Assembly: GCF_023115465.1 (NCBI RefSeq)
Contig: NZ_CP096034.1
Coordinates: 2,232,001 to 2,296,000 of the forward strand
Reading direction: 5' to 3'
DNA from: Gottfriedia acidiceleris
GTDB taxonomy: Bacteria; Bacillota; Bacilli; Bacillales; Bacillaceae_G
DNA: 64,000 nt
In this document: positions 26,860-40,058 of the stretch, piece after piece
How the letters are laid out: each line of letters starts with the position of its first letter
Numbering within the stretch: the first letter of the stretch is position 1
The notes under the pieces: model-generated
The model's input: the letters and a program-made list of their open reading frames with translations, nothing else
Databases searched by the model: none
What the model was told of the DNA's origin: nothing
Program-made: the position numbers and the translations under genes

Positions 26860-29154
26860 CTATTTAATAGGACCAGCTTTTTTATAAGTATCTTTCAAGA
26901 TGAAGTACGATTGTTTTAGACGTTCATGATAACTAGGCTTTTGCCATTTTTTCCAAGTAAAAGAATAAAAATCATCCGTTAAAAGTTTTCCGTTTTTTTG
27001 TCTAACAGTAGAATAGGATAATTCCTTGGTGAACTCAGTAGGACGATAAGTAAGAACTGCTACGTGAATTTTTTTTACATTTTCGTAGCTTTGAAGACCA
27101 CCTTTCCATAAATCACCCATGATTTCACGTGTACTTGGATCTCTCACATTTAATAATTGCCAAGGGATACGAATTTCTAACACATGATCTTTTTTGTTTA
27201 AGGATACATCAGTTAAAGAGTTAAAATCTTTATGATGTGGGTTTCCATCTCCGTAAATTAGTTTACCTGTTTCGTAAGACTCCAAAGGTAAGTTTAGAGA
27301 TTCCCCGTTTAAATTTGGGATTACTAGTGGTTTATTTAATCCAAGCATGACTTTATGATAGATGCCATTATTTATTAAATTTACTTTCGGTTCAATTGGT
27401 GCATAATGTAAAAGATGGGCGTATTCATAATAAAATGGATCATAATAGCTATCCACAAGAACTTGAGATTTATTAGGTCCATTTAAGTCAATTACAAAAT
27501 CGATTCCATTTTCAGCATTAACTGTTTTAACATTTGGAAGTTGATGTTGTCCTTGACCTGGAATTGTATCCAGTAAAAGCATAATGCCCGTTTTTGACCA
27601 ATCAAAAGGTTGATTCGTTTTTTCAAAATTTAAAAGAAAATTAATCGTTCGCTCGTCGCTAGACATTGCCCAATTCTTTAATTTCCGTTCATTATCGTTT
27701 TGATCAAGAGAATGAATAAAATTAGCATTTTTCATATTTGCGGTTTTGATTTTTTTCCAATCACTTGGATCACCATCTACAGAAATGACATTTTTTGAAC
27801 TGTTAGGATCAAAAGATAATAAACCAAATTGCTGCTCACTTGTTTGAACATTTGACCAATATGGTCGACGTTCAGGATCATCTAATTGCATATTATTCCA
27901 TGTTCGTTTAAACCATTCATCTTGCCACGAAAATACAACTCCGCCAGCCATTTTCTCCATTTGAATGTCTTCAAAAAGATGAGCATTAATTTGTCCTTGC
28001 TCAGTTTCATTATGAAATCCTTGGTTCCATCCATAACGATTGCGATGAGTCATACCTCTAGAAGATGGTACACCAAATTCTGAAATTAAAACTGGCATAT
28101 TATGTACCTTCCTTAGATCATGTAAATATCCAGCATAACTATTCTTCTTACCCCGGGAATCAACATAATTCGTATAAGCTAGTTCATAATTTAAAAATTC
28201 CGGGTAATATGGGTATACGTGATAGGAAGCAAAATATCCAGGATATAATACTGACTTTGGTTTGACATGATTCGGATTTAATGAAACCATATCTTCATTT
28301 TCCTCCGGTTCACTTGGATGATGAATAGGATCTGTAGTTACCCAATTCGCAAAGCTAATTGGACGCTGCCAAGCATATTTTTCGGTTTCATATTTCACGG
28401 TATTATCTAATATACTTGCAAGCCAAACTTCAAATGGAGTTGCATTGTTTGTTTGAAAGTACTGACCATTAAAGTCAATTTGACCTTTATGTTTATCATT
28501 TGTTGATTTCATCATATTTGGGTCCCACTCTATACCTAAAATCCATCCAATAACGTATTTTGAAATGTTTGAATGGTACTTACCCGAAGCGTGACCTAGC
28601 TTTTGAGGGATTTGTGCTTTCCCATGAATTACATCAACAGTTTGACGTATATCATGTTGAAACTCTTTAGTCAGGCTCTCATTGTAAATATCGCCTAATG
28701 AATTCATCTTTTCCTCATTGATCCAAACACCGTGTAGTAAATAGAGAGGGTGTTTAGTTTTTTGATTGTATTCAAATAGTGCATCATAAAAAGCAGGAGG
28801 ATGAAGGGTATATACTCGAATAACATTTGCGTGCATTTTTCCAATGGCTTTAAACCACCTTAGATATTCGGCTTTTGTAATAGCTGTTTCACCAGGAAAG
28901 TGTCCTGGATTTGCGATTCCAAGATTTACACCTTTCAGAAGGAAATCTTTTGGGGTTTTTGTTTTATCAAAAAGTTGAAAATAATTTTTACCGATTTGAG
29001 CGGGAATTGTAATATTATTTGTTTTATATGTGTATGTGTTAACTTTCTTAATAACTTTACTAGTATTTGTCTGATGAAATAGTATAAACGCCACACCAAT
29101 CAATAGACAAAGCATCAGCAAAATCAGCCATCTTTTTTTATTTTGTTTCATCAT
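26860..29154 (-). CDS. membrane-anchored glycoside hydrolase-like protein with a CBM9/DOMON-like C-domain
   Basis: About 764 residues from ATG 29154, with GGAGG 5 nt upstream on the minus strand. The TTG at 29166 overlaps that site. An N-terminal anchor helix (WLILLMLCLLIGVAFILF) is followed by a TIM-barrel-like region. It begins LLKGVNLGIANPGHFPGE and contains ANVIRVYTLHPP, a possible acid/base Glu in GIEWDPN (near residue 210) and a possible nucleophile Glu in ISEFGVPSSRG (near residue 360). That spacing suits clan A glycosidases. From about residue 470 a beta-sandwich resembling CBM9/DOMON begins (SVDGDPSDWKKI ... VLEIRIPWQLL). Substrate unknown, presumably an exopolysaccharide or wall glycan. 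Single-gene unit. Confidence 0.7.
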   Translation of the reverse strand: MMKQNKKRWLILLMLCLLIGVAFILFHQTNTSKVIKKVNTYTYKTNNITIPAQIGKNYFQLFDKTKTPKDFLLKGVNLGIANPGHFPGETAITKAEYLRWFKAIGKMHANVIRVYTLHPPAFYDALFEYNQKTKHPLYLLHGVWINEEKMNSLGDIYNESLTKEFQHDIRQTVDVIHGKAQIPQKLGHASGKYHSNISKYVIGWILGIEWDPNMMKSTNDKHKGQIDFNGQYFQTNNATPFEVWLASILDNTVKYETEKYAWQRPISFANWVTTDPIHHPSEPEENEDMVSLNPNHVKPKSVLYPGYFASYHVYPYYPEFLNYELAYTNYVDSRGKKNSYAGYLHDLRKVHNMPVLISEFGVPSSRGMTHRNRYGWNQGFHNETEQGQINAHLFEDIQMEKMAGGVVFSWQDEWFKRTWNNMQLDDPERRPYWSNVQTSEQQFGLLSFDPNSSKNVISVDGDPSDWKKIKTANMKNANFIHSLDQNDNERKLKNWAMSSDERTINFLLNFEKTNQPFDWSKTGIMLLLDTIPGQGQHQLPNVKTVNAENGIDFVIDLNGPNKSQVLVDSYYDPFYYEYAHLLHYAPIEPKVNLINNGIYHKVMLGLNKPLVIPNLNGESLNLPLESYETGKLIYGDGNPHHKDFNSLTDVSLNKKDHVLEIRIPWQLLNVRDPSTREIMGDLWKGGLQSYENVKKIHVAVLTYRPTEFTKELSYSTVRQKNGKLLTDDFYSFTWKKWQKPSYHERLKQSYFILKDTYKKAGPIK

Positions 29155-29399
29155 TCTATCCTCCAAAACATTTAAAACTTAATTTATTCGTTTAGTATGC
29201 TAAAAGGTAATTTGCTATATGCGTTAGTAGTGAATAAGTTTAACGCCTTTTAATTAGCATTCTTTTGATAAAAAATAAAAGTAAGGTCAAATTATATATT
29301 GAAAATGTCGGTTAAAAAAAGTAAAACATGGTTAAATTAACGTTAAGAAAAGTAATTTAATTAAAATTCGTTATATTTTAAATCATGTGAGGAAAAATT

Positions 29400-29861
29400 A
29401 TGAATAATAATGATGGAATCAAACCTTCAAGGAAATATGCTAATGGAACAGTACACGAGACTGCTAGTGGGAAATTTAAAGTATTAGATCGCTATTTAAA
29501 AGATGGTGTAATAATGATTAAGCTTCAATGGTTAGAAAGCAATGTAATTGAAGAAAACAAAGAAGTAAATGTGTCTGCTTCCATTTATAAATTTCAAAAA
29601 AGCAGAGGAATGAATGAAAATAGCGCTTTATCTCAGCCTGTAGAAGTACAATTACTACATGATATCAAAACTAGTTTAGACCGATTATTTGAAATTTTAG
29701 ATTTAAGGACGGAACTTTCAAATCATGCACTAGAAAAAATTGATGAAAATAGAAAGAAAATTGACGAGAATAGAGAAACTCTAAAGACACAACAAAAAAT
29801 GATTGAAGAACAAAATAAGAGAATTAACACAATCGTAGATAAGTTGATTGAAAAAATGTAA
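29400..29861 (+). CDS. hypothetical coiled-coil protein
   Basis: A 153-residue protein, ATG 29400 with GAGGAAA upstream. Residues about 10-65 look like a compact beta domain (YANGTVHETASGKFKVLDRYLKDGVIMIKLQWLES...). Residues about 85-153 are a long charged coiled coil (LLHDIKTSLDRLFEILD, then IDENRKKIDENRETLKTQQ with a seven-residue duplication, ending INTIVDKLIEKM). The N-terminal part recalls domains found beside homing or phage endonucleases, but no catalytic motif is visible. Function unknown. The downstream terminator separates it from the TelA operon. Confidence 0.65.
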   Translation: MNNNDGIKPSRKYANGTVHETASGKFKVLDRYLKDGVIMIKLQWLESNVIEENKEVNVSASIYKFQKSRGMNENSALSQPVEVQLLHDIKTSLDRLFEILDLRTELSNHALEKIDENRKKIDENRETLKTQQKMIEEQNKRINTIVDKLIEKM

Positions 29862-30169
29862 TGATTAGACGAAAGATGACGATATTTTTTAAATAAACAA
29901 GTATCAACATGTTGGAGTTAAGAATGGTTTGTTTAGAGTTAACTGTAAAATAAAATACAAATTATAATGGCTCATTTTTCTCTGGTGTTTAACTTTTATA
30001 ATTAATCAAAAAGACTGCTTAGCGGTCTTTTTTTTATTTGTTGAAAAAAATCATATCTAATAATTTTAAGTTAAGTCAGTATTTATCCAATTTTATTAAA
30101 CTAAAAACTCAGAATGATAAATATAAATGAGTAATAGAGCATAAATAGAGTATAGCGGAGGAGTGAAGG
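29862..30169. other. intergenic region before the TelA operon
   Basis: A 308-bp gap containing one terminator (30008-30037) and the presumed promoter of the XpaC/vWA/TelA operon. I could not fix a consensus promoter. Nothing else is visible. Confidence 0.35.
30008..30037 (+). terminator. intrinsic terminator
   Basis: AAAAAGAC plus TGC pairs with GCGGTCTTTTT over a 3-4 nt loop, followed by a long T-run to about 30037. Confidence 0.8.
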
Positions 30170-30904
30170 ATGATAAAGGGATTAAAATTAGTTGGGCTAA
30201 TCGCTTTCATTTCAATTTTGAATGTGATTGTATTCTCTCCAGGTTTAATCGGAATCCAATTAATTAATGCGAGTGCATTTCAAACTGCATTTGGGGTATC
30301 GTTCATAATAGCGAATTTGTTAGTACTTCTATTTAGTATGTTTCAACTATATTTCAAGCCTGTTAAAGATAAGCCAATTAAGCAGCTAAAAACAAACGAA
30401 GATTTCGTTCTTGCTTTAAGTCGATATAAAAATAATAAAGTACTAAAAGAAGATATCATTACTTCAATTGAGCAAATCGAACGAATGAAAAAGAAAAAAG
30501 TCGTATTTTATAACTTATTAACCGATCGATTTTCTCCAACCGAAATTACATACAACAAGTTTGCATCTGTTGTGGACGAGGTTGAGACATTATTTTATTT
30601 AAGAATAAGAAACATCATAAATAAGATTAGTACTTTTGATGAACTTGATTATAAAAAAATAAAGGGGAAAGACGGATTACGATACTCAAAGTCATTAATT
30701 CAAGAGAAAACAAATCTTATTAATGAATATATCAAATTCGTAAAAAGGGCAATTGAATTGAATGAAGAGATTCTTGTTAATATTGATAAATTAATTTTAG
30801 AAATTTCAAGGCTAGATGAAATAGGCATCGATGATATTGAAAAAATGGAATGTATGAAAGAAATCGATACGTTAATTCAACAAACAAAATATTATAGGCA
30901 ATGA
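30170..30904 (+). CDS. XpaC-like membrane protein, first gene of the vWA/TelA operon
   Basis: A 244-residue protein, ATG 30170 with GGAGGAG upstream. Two N-terminal helices (about 5-27 and 38-62) are followed by a helical cytoplasmic part rich in charged residues (IEQIERMKKKKVVFYNLL, VDEVETLFYLRIRNIINKI, LIQEKTNLINEYIKFVKRAIELNEEILVNIDKLI). Position before a vWA protein and TelA, and a membrane plus helical layout, resemble XpaC-type proteins, which neighbour TelA/YaaN in B. subtilis. The sequence match to XpaC itself is weak by eye. Its stop overlaps the next frame. Confidence 0.6.
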   Translation: MIKGLKLVGLIAFISILNVIVFSPGLIGIQLINASAFQTAFGVSFIIANLLVLLFSMFQLYFKPVKDKPIKQLKTNEDFVLALSRYKNNKVLKEDIITSIEQIERMKKKKVVFYNLLTDRFSPTEITYNKFASVVDEVETLFYLRIRNIINKISTFDELDYKKIKGKDGLRYSKSLIQEKTNLINEYIKFVKRAIELNEEILVNIDKLILEISRLDEIGIDDIEKMECMKEIDTLIQQTKYYRQ

Positions 30905-30921
30905 ATGGAAGGATGATAAAA

Positions 30922-32595
30922 ATGAGGAAGTTTCTTTTTGCATCTATTGCAGTGATCGTTGTAGTTTTTCTTCTTGTCTATATTGGAATTAATATGACTT
31001 CAGAAGATAAAGTTGTGAAAATTACTGATAAAAATAAAAATCAGCAATTAGCTAAAATGATTTCAAAAATAAATATTTCCAAAGCAAAACCAATTAATGG
31101 TCAAATTGACTTAAGTACAGCTGATGTAGCAAGTGAACTCCCTGATATTTCTAAATTTCCTGTTTCTGTAGACAATACGACTGATCTTTTTGTTGAAATT
31201 TTTTCATCCACTGAAAAATCAAGTGATGGGAAAAATGGTTGGTTAAACGAAGTCGCAACTAAGTTTAATGATGCAAAATTCAATCTAGGTGGTAAGCAAG
31301 TATCTGTAAAAATTAGAAACATTGCATCTGGTACTGCAACAGACTTTATTAAATCTGGTAAATATGTTCCTGATGCTTTTACACCGTCAAATGAACTTTG
31401 GGGTCAAATGATTACAGCAAGTGGTGTACAAACAGAAACCGTCTCCTCGCGATTAGTTGGGAATGTTCCTGGTATTGTCATTTCAAGGACAAAATATAAT
31501 GAGTTAATGAAAAAATATAGTAAAGTCAATCCGAAAACCGTCATCGAAGCAATGACAAAAAATGAACTCTCAATGGGGTATACCGACCCTTTTACTAGTT
31601 CAACGGGACTAAATTTTTTAGTTACGACTTTAAATTCCTTTGATTCAAATGATGTTCTTAGTGATACTGCTGTGAGAGGGTTTGAAAGCTTCCAAGCAAA
31701 TGTGCCATTCACTGCTTCTACGACTCTACAAATGAGTGATGCAGCAGAATCGGGCGTTCTAGATGCATTTGTCTTAGAATATCAAACATTTGTTAATTTA
31801 CCTAATTTAAAAAATAGTTACGAATTTATACCATTTGGAGTGCGACACGACAGTCCACTTTATGCTTTAGGGAATTTACGAAAAGAGAAAATGGATATTT
31901 TGAAAAAATTTGCAGAATTTACTGGTCAACCTAATCTTCAAGCACTTGCGAAACAAGATGGGTTTAATGGGTTGAATAGTTACAAATCACAGCTTAAAAC
32001 GATTGATGGGGATACTTTAAGTGCTGCACAAAAACTTTGGAAAGGAAAGAAAAATACTTCAAATCCAATTGCTGCGGTTTTTGTAGCAGATGTTTCAGGT
32101 AGTATGGATGGTAAACCATTAAATGAGCTAAAAGAATCACTCCTTAAAGGGCAAAAGTATTTAGGAAGAGATAATAGCATTGGCTTAATCTCATACTCTG
32201 CCGATGTTACGATCAATCTTCCAATTGCAAAATATGATGCAAATCAACAGTCAAAATTTGTTGGTGCCGTATCTAGCCTCGATGCAAGTGGAGATACAGC
32301 AACAAACGATGGAATCCTTGTAGCAATTAATATGCTAAAAGAAGAAATGAAAAAAAATCCAAATGTAAGACCGCTCATTTTTGTCCTAACCGATGGCGAG
32401 ACAAATCATGGGAATTCATTGAAGAATGTAAAAGGAATCATAAAAGCATATAAAATTCCAATTTATACGATTGGTTATAACGCTAATATTAAAGCGCTTG
32501 AAAGTATTTCAAATATTAACGAAGCTGCAAATATTAATGCTGATTCAGATGACGTAATCTATAAAATTCGTAATCTCTTTAATGTTCAACTTTAA
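30922..32595 (+). CDS. membrane-anchored protein with substrate-binding and vWA domains
   Basis: About 557 residues from ATG 30922, chosen because GGAAGGA lies 8 nt upstream. ATG 30901 has none. An N-terminal helix (FLFASIAVIVVVFLLVYIGI) anchors it. Residues about 75-330 resemble a periplasmic substrate-binding fold (NTTDLFVEIFSS, PDAFTPSNELWGQMI, MGYTDPFTSSTGLNFL). Residues about 370-550 form a von Willebrand A domain with a complete metal site: DVSGSMDG, Thr in SGDTATNDG and Asp in VLTDGETNHG. It should bind a ligand outside the membrane with Mg-dependent adhesion. It sits between an XpaC-like protein and TelA, spaced 19 nt from the latter. Confidence 0.85.
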   Translation: MRKFLFASIAVIVVVFLLVYIGINMTSEDKVVKITDKNKNQQLAKMISKINISKAKPINGQIDLSTADVASELPDISKFPVSVDNTTDLFVEIFSSTEKSSDGKNGWLNEVATKFNDAKFNLGGKQVSVKIRNIASGTATDFIKSGKYVPDAFTPSNELWGQMITASGVQTETVSSRLVGNVPGIVISRTKYNELMKKYSKVNPKTVIEAMTKNELSMGYTDPFTSSTGLNFLVTTLNSFDSNDVLSDTAVRGFESFQANVPFTASTTLQMSDAAESGVLDAFVLEYQTFVNLPNLKNSYEFIPFGVRHDSPLYALGNLRKEKMDILKKFAEFTGQPNLQALAKQDGFNGLNSYKSQLKTIDGDTLSAAQKLWKGKKNTSNPIAAVFVADVSGSMDGKPLNELKESLLKGQKYLGRDNSIGLISYSADVTINLPIAKYDANQQSKFVGAVSSLDASGDTATNDGILVAINMLKEEMKKNPNVRPLIFVLTDGETNHGNSLKNVKGIIKAYKIPIYTIGYNANIKALESISNINEAANINADSDDVIYKIRNLFNVQL

Positions 32596-32614
32596 TTAGT
32601 AGGAGGATTTAAGA

Positions 32615-33763
32615 ATGTCATTTTCTATGCAAGTTGTAAATGAAGAGGAAATCAAGGCAGTAATTGAAGAACAAGTAAAGCCTGTTCCAGAAGAATTAAT
32701 GCAATTAAAAGCAACAGCGGATGCAAATGTAGCGATGATTATGGAATTAGACACTGTTTCAAAGGAAACATACGAAAAACGTAAGGAAATTCTTCAATCA
32801 ATCGAATCATTTGGATTACAGACGATGAAATCTTCTTCAAATAAAAATTCTCTTCTAAAGGTTTCACTTGGCCAACTTGCTAAAAGTGGAGACGAAGGAG
32901 GGCAAGTTGCAAAAGGATTATCAGAGCTCCAAGTTCAATTAAAGGATTTAGATCCTAGTGCAATTAATTTTGCAAAATCGGGTTTTTTAGGTAAGTTATT
33001 TAATCCTATTCGTTCATATTTTCAAAGATTTGAAAAAGCAGATGTCGCAATCGCAGATATCGTAAAGTCACTTGATAAGGGGAAAAAAATTCTTGAAAAT
33101 GATAACACGACATTAGAGCATGAACAATTATCACTACGTATGCTTTCAAAAACACTAGAAAAGGAAATCCAACTTGGAACATTAATGGATGAGTCAATTG
33201 AAAATCAAATTGAAAAAGCAAAAATCGAAGGGGAAGATCAAGAAAAAATTAAATTCATCTCTGAAGAAGTTCTTTATCCGTTACGACAACGAGTCATGGA
33301 CCTACAGCAAATGTTAGTTGTAAATCACCAAGGAGATATGTCATATGAGGTTGTCATTCGGAATAATCGTGAATTAATTCGAGGTGTGGAACGTGCAAAA
33401 ACGGTAACGATTTCTGCATTGAATACAGCTGTAACGGTAGCAAGTGCACTATATAATCAAAAAATTGTTTTACAAAAAATCACTGCTTTAAATCAAACAA
33501 CAAATACAATTATTGAAGGTACTTCTAGATTATTAAAGGAGCAAGGTGTTGCAATTCAAAAGCAAGCGATGGAATCAGCCGTTTCTGTTGAAACACTTAA
33601 AACCTCGTTCACTAACGTCATATCAGCGTTTGAATCGATTAGTACATTTAAACAAGAAGCTTTGCCAAAAATGCGTCAAACAATCCTACAATTTCAAGAA
33701 TTAGCTGAAGTCGGTTCACAACAGATTGAAAGACTTGAAAAAGGGAATCGGATTGGATTATAG
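32615..33763 (+). CDS. telA: TelA/KlaA-family toxic-anion-resistance protein
   Basis: A 382-residue cytoplasmic protein, AGGAGG 8 nt upstream of ATG 32615. The sequence is largely alpha-helical and matches the TelA family throughout: KLFNPIRSYFQRFEKADVAIADIVKSLDKGKKILENDN, then LRQRVMDLQQMLVVNHQGDMSYEVVIRNNRELIRGVERAKTVT, ending in a helical tail. TelA is linked to tellurite and other envelope stress responses, though its biochemistry is not settled. It is the last gene of an operon with an XpaC-like protein and a vWA protein, the same partners seen in Ter-type stress modules. The genuine terminator at 33779 follows closely. Confidence 0.88.
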   Translation: MSFSMQVVNEEEIKAVIEEQVKPVPEELMQLKATADANVAMIMELDTVSKETYEKRKEILQSIESFGLQTMKSSSNKNSLLKVSLGQLAKSGDEGGQVAKGLSELQVQLKDLDPSAINFAKSGFLGKLFNPIRSYFQRFEKADVAIADIVKSLDKGKKILENDNTTLEHEQLSLRMLSKTLEKEIQLGTLMDESIENQIEKAKIEGEDQEKIKFISEEVLYPLRQRVMDLQQMLVVNHQGDMSYEVVIRNNRELIRGVERAKTVTISALNTAVTVASALYNQKIVLQKITALNQTTNTIIEGTSRLLKEQGVAIQKQAMESAVSVETLKTSFTNVISAFESISTFKQEALPKMRQTILQFQELAEVGSQQIERLEKGNRIGL

Positions 33764-33778
33764 GTGTTGGACTAAAAA

Positions 33779-33808
33779 AAACTAAGATTGCTTTGATCTT
33801 AGTTTTTT
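33779..33808 (+). terminator. intrinsic terminator of the TelA operon
   Basis: AAACTAAGAT (33779-33788) pairs exactly with ATCTTAGTTT (33796-33805), T-run follows. Confidence 0.9.
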
Positions 33809-33976
33809 GCTTTTTCAATCTTATTAATAATTTGGAAGCACAATTAGGAGGAATAAGTTAACGAACTCTGCTTATTTTAATGCATAATTAAGTCAATCAA
33901 ACATATCTTCAAAACTATAATATTACCATTTGACCTATGAGGAATTAAATTTAAAACCTTTAAGGGAGATATTCTC

Positions 33977-34846
33977 ATGAAACTAATTGCATTAGACTTA
34001 GATGGTACTACACTCAACTCAAAAAAAATAATAAGTGAAGAAACCTTAAACTCGATTAAAAAAGCTCAGGTAGCAGGAAATATCGTTATGATTTTATCCG
34101 GGCGTTCACCAAGTTCAGTATATGATGAACTTTTAAAGTATGGTTTAAATTGTCCAGTTGGAGGCCATAACGGGACAGAATTATATGTAAATGGTAAATT
34201 AATTGAACTAAATTCCTTAGGGAGACCTCAAGTACAAAAAATTGCCTTAAATATTGAGAAAGAAGACTTACCGTACAATGTTTCTAATAATAAGGGAATA
34301 TTTGCCCCTAGAAATTGGAATAAACGATTTGAACAACTTGTTTTATCAGGGCGTGTTCCTAAAGAATACTTCTCGAACAGACACTTCAAAATGTTTACTA
34401 CACCTCCGAACGTATATGGACATTCTTATTTTAGCAAAGTTCAAGAAATAATTGATAATGAGGATTTTACAATTCAAAAGTTTCTTATTTTAACCCTTGA
34501 TCCAAAACAAATGGAGAGACTTGAAAAAAAATTAAGATTCATAGATGAGATTTTTGTTACGAGTGCCTCACCTTTTAATCTTGAGGTTACTCATATAAAT
34601 GGAAATAAAGGGTATGGTTTAAAAGCAATGGCATCCTATTTTAATATTCCATTAGAGAATACAGTTGCTATTGGAGATGAAAAAAATGACCTACCGATGT
34701 TTAATATAGCCGGATTATCAATAGCAATGGGAAATGCTGAAGAAGAAGTAAAGCTCTCATGTGATGTTGTTACTTTAAGTAATGATGAAAATGGTGTTGC
34801 TTATGCATTCGAAAAATATATTTTTAAAGAGTCTAATGTACTATAA
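33977..34846 (+). CDS. HAD-superfamily Cof-type phosphatase
   Basis: A 289-residue enzyme with AAGGGAG upstream of ATG 33977. Motif I is LDLDGTTLN, with the nucleophile Asp at residue 6 or so. Motif II is ILSGRSP, and motifs III/IV are in NKGYGLKAMA and GDEKNDLPMF. The C2B-type cap domain lies between. Cof-type HAD enzymes dephosphorylate sugar phosphates, flavin mononucleotide or pyridoxal phosphate. The substrate cannot be assigned. Single-gene unit ending in the 34887 hairpin. Confidence 0.9.
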   Translation: MKLIALDLDGTTLNSKKIISEETLNSIKKAQVAGNIVMILSGRSPSSVYDELLKYGLNCPVGGHNGTELYVNGKLIELNSLGRPQVQKIALNIEKEDLPYNVSNNKGIFAPRNWNKRFEQLVLSGRVPKEYFSNRHFKMFTTPPNVYGHSYFSKVQEIIDNEDFTIQKFLILTLDPKQMERLEKKLRFIDEIFVTSASPFNLEVTHINGNKGYGLKAMASYFNIPLENTVAIGDEKNDLPMFNIAGLSIAMGNAEEEVKLSCDVVTLSNDENGVAYAFEKYIFKESNVL

Positions 34847-36689: not shown

Positions 36690-39600
36690 ATGGGGAGGAG
36701 AAGGAAGTTGAAGCATTTATTTTTAATTATTATGTCAGTATTACTTATTTTAAGCAGTGTGAGCTACATACGACCAGTGTATGCATCTACTGATGGGTAT
36801 AAGCTGTCAGAAGCAGAAAGTTTTATTTCTAGGTCGGGTTCAAATCTTAAAGTTGAAGCTTGTCCAGACGGTGGACAAAATGTTGGTGGAACGAATGATA
36901 ACCAGTATTTGGAATACGGGAATTTTGATTTTGGAAGCGGTATTAATGGTGCTACAAATTTCAGTGCAAGAGTCGCAGTTAAGGGATCTAATGCTGGTGG
37001 AGACATTGAGATTTGGATTGACAGTCCTAATAGTACGAATGGTAAGAAAGTAGGTACCCTTTCAGTTACAGCAACTGCACCAGACAATTGGAATGTTTAT
37101 CAAACTATGTCTACTGGTATTACTGAGGTTACTGGAGTACATAATGTCTATCTTGTATTAAAGGTTGCGGTTGGAAAAACATATGTTGCCAATATAAACT
37201 GGTTTCAATTTTCAAAATCGTTGAACAGTATTTCTCTAACAAAGCTACCAACGAAGACTTCCTATCGCATTGGTGAAAGCCTTGATCTTACGGGGTTAGA
37301 GGTCACAGGTACGTATATTGATGGTACAAAACGTGTAGAGGAGATTAGAGCTTCAGATGTGAGCGGAATCAATAGTTCTTCGGCAACAACTAATCAAACC
37401 TTAACGCTCACAATACGAGGTAAGAAAGTTACCTACTCAGTAAATATAAATCCATAGATTCTACAAAGTATTATCGCACCTCAATCAATCACAGGGGTAG
37501 AAAATGGCACAGCACCATCAATGGTCGCATTAGGTTTGCCTAGTAATGTAGATCTAGTTACTGATGGAGGAAATGTTAATGCACCAGTTAAATGGGATAT
37601 TGACTCTTCAGGCTATAATCCAGCCTTAAAGGCAGAGCAGAGGTTTTCGATTTCAGGATTAGTAAACAAGCCTGAAGACATTACTAATCCAAATAATGTC
37701 GCACTGTCAACACAAATAAATGTTACTGTACTAGCTTCGTCAACTCCTGAAAAAGATACTAGTTATAAATTCAGTTTTATGGCAATTTCTGATACACATT
37801 CCAATGTAAAAGGTGATAGCAATGACCTTATATTAAATGAAACAATGCATGATGCGGTTAATAATAATGTGAAATCAGTTAGCGTCGTAGGTGACCTTAC
37901 TGATTATGGGACAGATGCACAATACGATACTTTTATGTCAACGATGAATAAATATCCTGAATTAAATCGCAACTATGTATTTGGAAACCATGATGTAAGA
38001 TGGATGAACGGATTCGAAACCGCTAAAAATAGATTTCTATCCCATACCGGAATGCCAGCTGTGTATTTTGATAAATGGATTAATGGATATCATTTTATTT
38101 ATTTGGCAACCGAGACGGATGATAAGGACAGTGCTTACCTTTCGGATACGCAACTTAACTGGTTAAAAGTAAAATTGGCCGAGGGCGCTAAAAAATCTAA
38201 ACCAATCTTTTTATTCGTTCACCAACCATTAGGTAATACTGTGTCAATGACAAGGCCAGAGGATGGCTATCAAAGTGATGAAGTACAGGACCAAAGATTT
38301 AAAGATATTGTAGGTGAATATCCTCAAAGCGTATTAATAACTGGACATGTTCATGATGATATTAGACTACCTGGTACTTTATATAATAAACAGTATTTTT
38401 CAATGATAAGAGATGGAGCAATAAAATATAACCCTTCTTATTCTAAAGAGCCAGGTGCTCAAGGGCTGATTTTTGATATATATGCCGATAGAGTTGTAAT
38501 TAATGGAAGGGACTTTGCTAAAAAAAGTACAATTGCTACATGGACAATAAAAAATTATACGACGGATGCGCTTCAAGCGGATCAACAAGCACCAACTTCA
38601 CCGTCAAATATTACTACAAAGTTAGTAACGGACAAAACGGCAATTCTATCTTGGAATGCATCAACAGATAATTTTAAGGGGAATGTAGGTGTAACTGGCT
38701 ATGATATTTTTAACGCTGGGACTTTGATTGGTTCTACAACTGGTCGTACAAACTTTGAAATAACAGGACTAAAAGCTAATACAACATATCAATTTACAGT
38801 CAAAGCAAAGGATGCAGCAGGTAATTTATCAGAAGAAAGTAGTGCAATTAATGTTACAACATTAGCGTATGATCCGGCACCATACAATTTGACTTTGAAC
38901 AAGACAGCTACAGCAAATGGTAGCTTAATAGGGAATGACCCTTCAAAGGCCGTTGATGGGTCTGCTAAAAATGATAGTAAGTGGTCTTCGAATACTAACG
39001 GAGACAAATGGCTAATGGTGGACCTTGGACAAGACTATGATATTAGTAGATGGATCGTGAAGCATTCTGGAGAAGGTGGAGAAAGCATATCTCTAAATAC
39101 TAAAAATTATAAACTTCAGGGAAGTCTAGATGGAACTACTTGGAAGGATCTAGACACCGTTGCAGGTAATGTATCTAATAGCACAGACAGGTATTTTAAT
39201 AAAACAAATGTAAGGTATGTCAGGCTTTACATTACGACACCTCAAAATTATGCTGAAACAGGTACAGCAAATATTTATGAATTTGAAGTATATGGACGAA
39301 GCATCGATGTTGATTCGCCTATGACAACCGCAACAACTAACGGGATTATTGGTGACGATGTGTGGAATATAAAGAATGTAAATGTTAATTTCAATGCTGA
39401 GGACAATCTGAATGGTACAGGTGTCAATCGTATTGAGACAAGGATAGACGAAGGCGAATGGGTATCCCAAAACCAATTAACTTTGACAGAGGAAGGCATA
39501 CACAAAGTTGAATATCGTGCGATTGATAACGCAGGAAATGTAGAAGTAACAAAACAACTTATTATAAGTATTGATAAGACGGGACCAATCGTTACAGAAT

Positions 39601-40058
39601 CTGTCCCGATCGATGGCAGTATTTTTGAAAATGATGAGGAAATTACGCCTAAGTTTACATTAGTAGACAATTTTTCAGGTGTTGATAACTCTAAAACAAA
39701 GGCAAAACTTGATACGTATGCATACAAAATTGGTTCACCGATTGCATTATATACATTGCCACTTGGTTTACATTCAATTGTAATCTATTCAGTTGACAAA
39801 GCTGGTAATATTGGTACAAAAACTATTCAATTTCAAACTATTACAACAAATGAATCTTTAAATGAATTAGTAAAGCACTTTGCTGATACCGAATGGATTG
39901 ACAATGTAGGAATCGCAAATAGCCTCCACGAAAAGTTAGGAAATAACAATTTGAAAGGTTTCTTGAATGAAGTTAAGGCTCAAAGTGGTAAACACATCAC
40001 AAATGAGGCTGCAGAATATTTACTTAGAGACGCTCAATATTTGTTGTCACAACAATAA
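36690..40058 (+). pseudogene. secreted metallophosphoesterase with CBM, Ig, FnIII, F5/8C and FIMAH domains, split by an in-frame TAG
   Basis: ATG 36690 follows AGGAG and opens a frame with a signal peptide (LIIMSVLLILSSVSYIRPVYAS), a CBM6-like domain (about residues 33-172) and an Ig-like domain (about 180-255). It stops at TAG 37455-37457. The same frame continues without a break from 37458 to 40058. That part holds the rest of an Ig-like domain, a calcineurin-like phosphoesterase (AISDTHSN, GDLTDYG, GNHDVRW, FVHQP, GHVHDD), FnIII, an F5/8C (CBM32) domain, an OmpL47-type Ig domain and a C-terminal FIMAH domain ending at 40058. No binding site precedes the ATG at 37521. It reads as one 1122-codon gene with a single amber codon between two Ig-like domains. 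It could be a pseudogene, a sequencing error or a read-through site. Confidence 0.8.

Follow-up and report, generated by a model that had tools for sequence, protein, structure and literature searches.

The 64,000-nucleotide stretch of Gottfriedia acidiceleris DNA analysed here (the window; contig NZ_CP096034.1, positions 2,232,001 to 2,296,000 of a 4.69 Mb chromosome) contains three tightly spaced genes on the forward strand, referred to as g1, g2, and telA (g3), and together as the triad (Table 1). The g2 product combines a substrate-binding (SBP) domain and a von Willebrand A (vWA) domain in one chain that is predicted to be membrane-anchored; NCBI uses the name "substrate-binding and VWA domain-containing protein". 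The g1 product is a predicted membrane hairpin protein, and the third gene encodes a TelA family protein. The original prediction, made from the sequence alone, described these genes as an operon of an XpaC-like membrane protein, an external SBP-vWA protein with an intact metal site, and cytoplasmic TelA, with the shape of a signal or stress relay from an outside ligand to TelA. The unit itself and its anchored two-domain chain held up in the comparisons described below, and the shape of the unit fits outside-to-inside coupling.

Table 1. Features of the triad locus (window coordinates; aa, amino acids; ORF, open reading frame).
Feature	Positions	Strand	Description	Basis
Upstream terminator-like hairpin	30008-30032	+	separates the unit from a 153-aa ORF (29400-29861)	
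Leader	30099-30169	+	about 70 bases before g1, with GGAGG ribosome-binding site	alignment with 6 close relatives
g1 ORF	30170-30904	+	244 aa; no known family	
g2 ORF, longest form	30901-32595	+	564 aa; likely form 30922-32595; putative membrane-anchored SBP-vWA protein	
g2 SBP domain	31186-31935	+	residues about 96-345	Pfam SBP_bac_11, AlphaFold2, Foldseek
g2 vWA domain	32068-32550	+	residues about 390-550	Pfam VWA, Foldseek, PDB sequence search
g3 (telA)	32615-33763	+	382 aa; TelA family, triad-specific subtype	Pfam, tree
3' terminator-like hairpin	33776-33808	+	A/U-rich with U tract, right after telA	RNA fold

Open reading frames were called mechanically with the longest start, and intergenic gaps are thus approximate. 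A GGAAGG sequence at 30907-30912 lies 9 nt before the third in-frame ATG of g2, and therefore a start at 30922 is more likely than the ATG at 30901 that overlaps g1. The leader is conserved between the window and its six close relatives while the sequence farther upstream drifts, and it presumably carries the promoter of the unit. A promoter scan did not yield an exact promoter, returning 18 promoter-like sites compared to 19.6 in shuffled sequences. Downstream of telA, the region 33755-33825 folds at -19.1 kcal/mol (z -4.57), and none of 200 shuffles folded as low; the hairpin within it is not listed by the consensus terminator scan. The upstream hairpin was the single one found by that scan, against 2.0 expected in shuffles, and is weak evidence alone. 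Together, the leader, the tight gene spacing, and the 3' hairpin outline what is probably a single three-gene transcript.

The two-domain architecture of g2 is supported at several levels. Pfam matches above the curated cut-off were found to SBP_bac_11 (residues 110-355, E 1.8e-11), along with a match to VWA (residues 393-546, E 9.1e-20). An AlphaFold2 model computed with 14 homologues (mean predicted local distance difference test [pLDDT] 85.1, predicted template modelling score [pTM] 0.81) begins with one helix (residues 3-32), which is followed by a domain of mixed alpha/beta structure and by one that resembles vWA. In a Foldseek search, this model matched 691 solved chains at E<=0.001, including the binding proteins 4r6y, 2qry, AfuA, FbpA, and SubI and the dinucleotide-binding protein 7c0v; the template modelling (TM) score against 4r6y was 0.63, normalised to the target. 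Structure prediction had been set beforehand as the check on an N-terminal substrate-binding fold, and the model agrees with that fold. Inter-alpha-inhibitor heavy chains are also among the Foldseek matches, and were matched independently by a PDB sequence search over residues 386-550. The binding-protein chains presumably cover the SBP part of g2, as read from a match list that holds no residue ranges. Both a periplasmic-binding-protein fold and a vWA fold are thus supported in g2 by profile matches and the model.

The metal site of the vWA domain appears to be intact. The motifs DVSGSMDG, GDTATNDG, and LTDGETNHG quoted in the original prediction are all found in the sequence, and residues D397, S399, S401, T466, and D498 are identical in 18/18 aligned g2 homologues, cyanobacterial rows included. 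We take these five columns to be the metal ion-dependent adhesion site (MIDAS), as defined by DxSxS, a threonine, and an aspartate, and, as read from the alignment, the site is complete. The available part of PMC2875224 also gives the DxSxS motif definition. Conservation is similar in the SBP and vWA domains, with mean majority fractions of 0.74 and 0.76 over 14 rows and 0.68 and 0.69 over 18 rows, respectively. This argues for a retained ligand-binding function and disfavours a purely static role. The ligands of the Foldseek matches are so varied that no single one can be named for g2.

If g2 were part of a transport system, it would capture a solute (a nutrient or a toxic anion) that is then taken up or exported, and TelA would be a resistance component. 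The SBP_bac_11 match would fit such a role, as would the best Foldseek matches, which include binding proteins for thiamine, hexose phosphate, iron, sulfate, and dinucleotides. However, neither an ABC permease nor an ATPase was matched by Pfam among the eight window proteins tested, and the flanking ORFs vary between families (as judged by eye from ORF starts). Additionally, a fused vWA domain is not known as a usual feature of uptake SBPs. Transport is therefore considered highly improbable.

The N-terminal helix of g2 probably anchors the protein with both domains outside the cell. In the g2 homologues of three loci (L053, L090, and L092), the sequence has, in place of this helix, a hydrophobic stretch with a cysteine at its end that resembles a lipobox when read by eye, which fits a location of the domain pair outside the membrane. 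A comparable arrangement is known from the voltage-gated calcium channel alpha2-delta subunit, an extracellular anchored protein with a vWA metal site and a small-molecule-binding domain. Calcium-channel chains are present in the g2 Foldseek list, presumably through the vWA domain, as the list gives no ranges; in contrast to g2, the ligand-binding fold of alpha2-delta is a Cache fold, and there are no shared operon partners. The comparison is offered as an analogy, and no homology beyond the vWA domain is claimed.

The conservation of the triad was examined in sets of genomes drawn at the family, order, class, and phylum levels, which overlap in their genomes. After a loose first look, g2 was scored at E<=1e-20, a threshold that relatives of about 30-33% identity, such as cyanobacterial ones, may escape. 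The g2 profile used for the phylum draw (A1) was built from genus rows only, and profile A7 was used for the class draw. In the family draw, g2 was found in 12/19 genomes, all of one genus (12/13 congeners), and g1 was found in the same 12 genomes at adjoining coordinates. All 12 carry g1, g2, and telA in this order on one strand, so that the operon comparison across relatives proposed in the original prediction favours the unit. The same arrangement is found in eight loci from named records, which partly represent the same genomes; the nearest are Gottfriedia and Bacillus sp. records with 89-96% identity for g2. In wider draws, g2 occurs in 9/299 (order), 29/398 (class), and 10/398 (phylum) genomes. 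The class-draw loci have the ordered triad on one strand in 29/29 cases, with gaps of -4 to 217 nt; in seven of these, the gap between g2 and telA is at least 64 nt, long enough to accommodate an internal signal. An intact triad in 12/12 genus and 29/29 class-draw loci indicates linkage far beyond chance. The cassette is therefore kept as a unit, though it is patchily distributed.

A patchy spread, with 12/13 congeners as opposed to 10/398 genomes in the phylum draw, might also be expected of a conflict or defence system, in which a surface SBP-vWA protein would sense phage or competitors and TelA would block entry at the membrane. Ter/TelA components have been proposed to stop the entry of phage or xenobiotics (PMC7824862, available in part). 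However, none of the three proteins has a PADLOC match at E<=0.1 in a scan confined to g1, g2, and g3, and a defence role is regarded as decidedly improbable.

In the phylum draw, the most stable part of the cassette is the pair of g1 and g2. A g1 profile built from the genus only (A2) already detected g1 beside g2 in distant loci, the weakest match being at L053 (E 2.7e-4). The broader profile A5 includes g1 sequences from 8/10 of the genomes later found, leaving only G394 and G225 as new to it; its informative result is that no further genome of the 398 was matched at E<=0.001. With A5, g1 was found in exactly the 10 genomes with g2, and beside g2 in 10/10, including a weak yet adjacent match in G225 (34 bits, E 2.9e-8). 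By comparison, telA is adjacent in 7/10 (G000, G040, G084, G237, G353, G394, and G360). The core is therefore g1-g2, and TelA is a frequent rather than an exclusive partner. As a third member of the unit, TelA is supported but not obligatory.

The loci without adjacent telA belong to divergent genomes of other families in the same phylum, outside the class (G225, G396, and G415). G225 and G396 have TelA elsewhere, and the copies opened (L094 and L093, respectively) each follow a protein matching PF10112. In G225 (L053, 15-6000), Pfam places a FIST_C protein and a histidine kinase carrying a receiver domain after g1-g2, in the place of TelA, and these may represent an alternative output. In G396, the next two ORFs match a methyltransferase and DUF4397.

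The SBP-vWA protein is also older or wider than the triad. Searches of plasmids with tblastn found g2 relatives in four cyanobacterial records (31-33% identity over 81-93% of the query), and the three of these loci that were read have no g1 or TelA profile match at E<=0.1. One of the loci, L092, has two g2-like genes in tandem. On the cyanobacterial plasmids, band 7/prohibitin genes are annotated near the g2 relatives in L090 and L092, and caspase/CHAT family genes in L091 and L092.

The third protein is a clear member of its family (TelA, PF05816; E 1.9e-72, 244.6 bits against a curated cut-off of 30); a PDB sequence search gave weak coiled or helical matches (best E 0.42). A tree of 51 TelA proteins was built from 13 triad, 28 XpaC-linked, and 10 other sequences; the 13 are a selection from a larger number of known triad TelAs, and L072 and the fragment L112 were left out. 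The triad TelAs form one clade with support of 97/93, recovered in 96% of 200 bootstrap trees. A third TelA subtype sits beside this clade, and the TelA from the Ter locus of the same genome lies on the same side of the midpoint root as the XpaC-linked copies, in a tree flagged for long branches and with deeper joins that are unsure. The third subtype comes from genomes of one family (f5). In two of its loci (L109, 620-2487; L110, 656-2484), telA is preceded by an ORF that looks hydrophobic and helical by eye, with a hydrophobic N-terminus, and has no Pfam family; in L111, the corresponding stretch is hidden by the mechanical choice of ORFs.

The Ter-locus TelA of this genome lies in a terD-terD-HTH-yceG-telA arrangement (L124; HTH, helix-turn-helix), and a similar locus is reported for B. 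megaterium in the accessible part of PMC9604106. Both TerD matches of the genome are beside this TelA, about 1.9 Mb from the triad. The two loci share a TelA family member, whereas in the Ter locus TerD, HTH, and YceG take the place of g1-g2 and the TelA belongs to a different clade. Membership of the triad in a Ter stress module is therefore not supported, as no TerD is found beside it in a profile search that covered TerD among the Ter partners. The Ter-type link made in the original prediction fits loosely: the TelA family is shared, but the lineages are separate.

Another parallel is the xpaC-yaaN (telA) operon known from Bacillus and Listeria, which published work links to envelope stress; in it, a protein with a hydrophobic hairpin and a helical domain, as read by eye, directly precedes TelA. 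Disruption of Listeria telA is cited as causing 4-fold sensitivity to nisin and 2-fold sensitivity to tellurite in the part of PMC12791056 available, which calls the resistance mechanism of TelA not known. An excerpt of PMC3498285 places xpaC-yaaN in the B. subtilis sigma-W core regulon. In a survey of 120 genomes, 62 XpaC matches were found in 60, and 30 loci were read; in 29 of them, XpaC has a TelA-profile match no more than 1.5 kb away, the exceptions to the simple pattern being L079, without a TelA match, and L072, where the match is split over two ORFs. The gene g1 precedes telA as XpaC does, but with g2 between them; in contrast, no SBP-vWA gene separates the two in the fetched xpaC-yaaN loci that were scanned.

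One reading would make g1 a highly divergent XpaC, with g2 as an insertion into an xpaC-telA operon. The shared position before TelA is consistent with this, as would be a similar layout: the AlphaFold2 model of g1 has two N-terminal helices (residues 2-22 and 36-62), which we read as predicted membrane helices, and then an extended bundle of helices (mean pLDDT 84.2, pTM 0.66), and XpaC appears from its sequences, read by eye, to be a hydrophobic hairpin with a helical domain. However, g1 does not match PF10112 (Halogen_Hydrol, XpaC) at E<=0.1, and the genome as a whole contains no PF10112 match at E<=0.001. Profile-profile comparison with hhalign gave a probability of 0.8%, where a reversed control reached 0.5%; the remaining runs, full-length and cytoplasmic, did not exceed their controls (0.0-0.1% against 0.0-2.7%), the cytoplasmic local alignment being run without a control. 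On sequence, XpaC homology was therefore rejected. The separate clade of the triad TelAs and the existence of g1-g2 pairs without TelA also argue against common descent, which we regard as improbable. The XpaC-like label of the original prediction is thus not supported as a statement of homology, and g1 is better described as XpaC-like in place and, as read from the sequences, in layout, but not in descent. The only Pfam match of g1 is to DUF3611 and is below the cut-off (E 0.023), NCBIfam adds sub-cut-off matches alone, and a PDB sequence search gave weak coiled or helical matches (best E 0.0017, to a chain whose name suggests a designed coiled coil).

Operons that pair vWA proteins with other cytoplasmic partners were also considered. 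According to the accessible part of PMC2875224, FtsZ-like-1 operons combine a cytoplasmic filament-type protein with vWA proteins that are secreted or membrane-bound and for the most part have an intact metal site; in this, these membrane-remodelling operons resemble the triad. Of 16 genomes tested, 15 with g2 and one without it (G009), five have a Tubulin_2 match, all five from one family. No match was seen at any of the 13 g2 loci examined or among 10 cyanobacterial neighbour proteins tested. With no Tubulin_2 match in the G. acidiceleris genome, an FtsZ-like-1 partnership was rejected for the triad locus. Literature searches with the phrase "substrate-binding and VWA" and with joint terms were unmatched, from which an absence of the triad from print is not claimed.

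Overall, we propose, with a probability of roughly 45%, that the triad is an outside-in envelope sensor in which g1, g2, and TelA together build one membrane complex. The g2 protein would be held by its N-terminal helix with its SBP and vWA domains outside the cell, and the SBP domain would bind a small molecule or an envelope fragment. The vWA metal site would then make a conditional contact, such that the ligand state changes the contact with g1 or the membrane, and g1, through its membrane hairpin and long cytoplasmic helical bundle, would relay this change inward. TelA, described as a sub-membrane component together with TerF in the available excerpt of PMC7824862, would assemble under the membrane on the activated complex and strengthen or reorganise it during envelope stress. 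The recurrence of a putative membrane protein before TelA, both in the XpaC loci and in L109 and L110, supports this proposal, as do the intact triads amid varying flanking ORFs, the shared occurrence of g1 and g2, the two g2 folds, the invariant metal site, the lipobox-like stretches, and the cited stress links of Listeria telA and B. subtilis xpaC-yaaN.

Several observations weigh against the sensor proposal. G225, G396, and G415 carry g1-g2 without adjacent telA, and G415 has no TelA match anywhere in its genome; TelA is therefore not the sole output. Three cyanobacterial loci (12.9-13.6 kb) have no g1 or TelA profile match at E<=0.1. Additionally, a Foldseek search with the g1 model gave nothing significant in the PDB (best E 0.25), and a sigma-W-type promoter is not obvious in the leader when read by eye against the consensus.

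The strongest rival to the sensor proposal is a static membrane scaffold, in which g1, g2, and TelA would make up a flotillin-like membrane domain or coat, with the SBP domain serving solely to hold a cell-wall or lipid component. TelA and the vWA protein TerF are described as forming sub-membrane structures in the part of PMC7824862 consulted, and band 7/prohibitin genes lie near g2 relatives on 2/3 cyanobacterial plasmids read. Similarly, G360 has a second, distant g1-like protein (L123, 1-2289) beside a Band_7 ORF and a YqiJ-like ORF, the latter below the Pfam cut-off (21.3 bits against 23). However, the conservation of the SBP domain suggests a kept ligand site, and none of the eight window proteins tested with Pfam matches SPFH. 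A static scaffold thus appears unlikely. As a separate observation, the second copy in G360 hints at a further role of g1-type proteins in SPFH membrane domains.

The neighbouring genes differ between related loci. Upstream, a 768-aa ORF on the reverse strand (26860-29166) resembles a TIM-barrel glycosidase by eye and has no Pfam family at E<=0.1; the corresponding stretch of L005, from the PBP gene to g1, lacks such an ORF of 100 aa or longer. At two loci, L005 (9009-9905) and L059 (10356-11252), an opposite-strand 298-aa ORF lies between telA and a HAD phosphatase gene, and it has no counterpart at 33763-33977 of the window. Farther downstream (36690-40058), two adjacent same-strand ORFs of 255 and 845 aa, with a carbohydrate-binding/Ig-like and calcineurin-type phosphoesterase appearance by eye, may belong together.

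What is new in the triad is the combination of its parts, rather than any single domain. It is possible, though doubtful, that a receptor with a ligand-binding and metal-dependent vWA ectodomain controls assembly of a TelA coat through a hairpin adaptor. This would be the first defined input for TelA, and g1-g2 would be a portable sensor for other outputs, with TelA in most cases and possibly the FIST protein and kinase in G225. As the triad usually gives TelA the same ectodomain and adaptor, it offers a purifiable binding domain and two defined partners as a handle. Several TelA subtypes seem to travel with a membrane partner of their own, the Ter-locus TelA being found with YceG instead. If each subtype does have its own partner, TelA would be an effector with exchangeable receptors.

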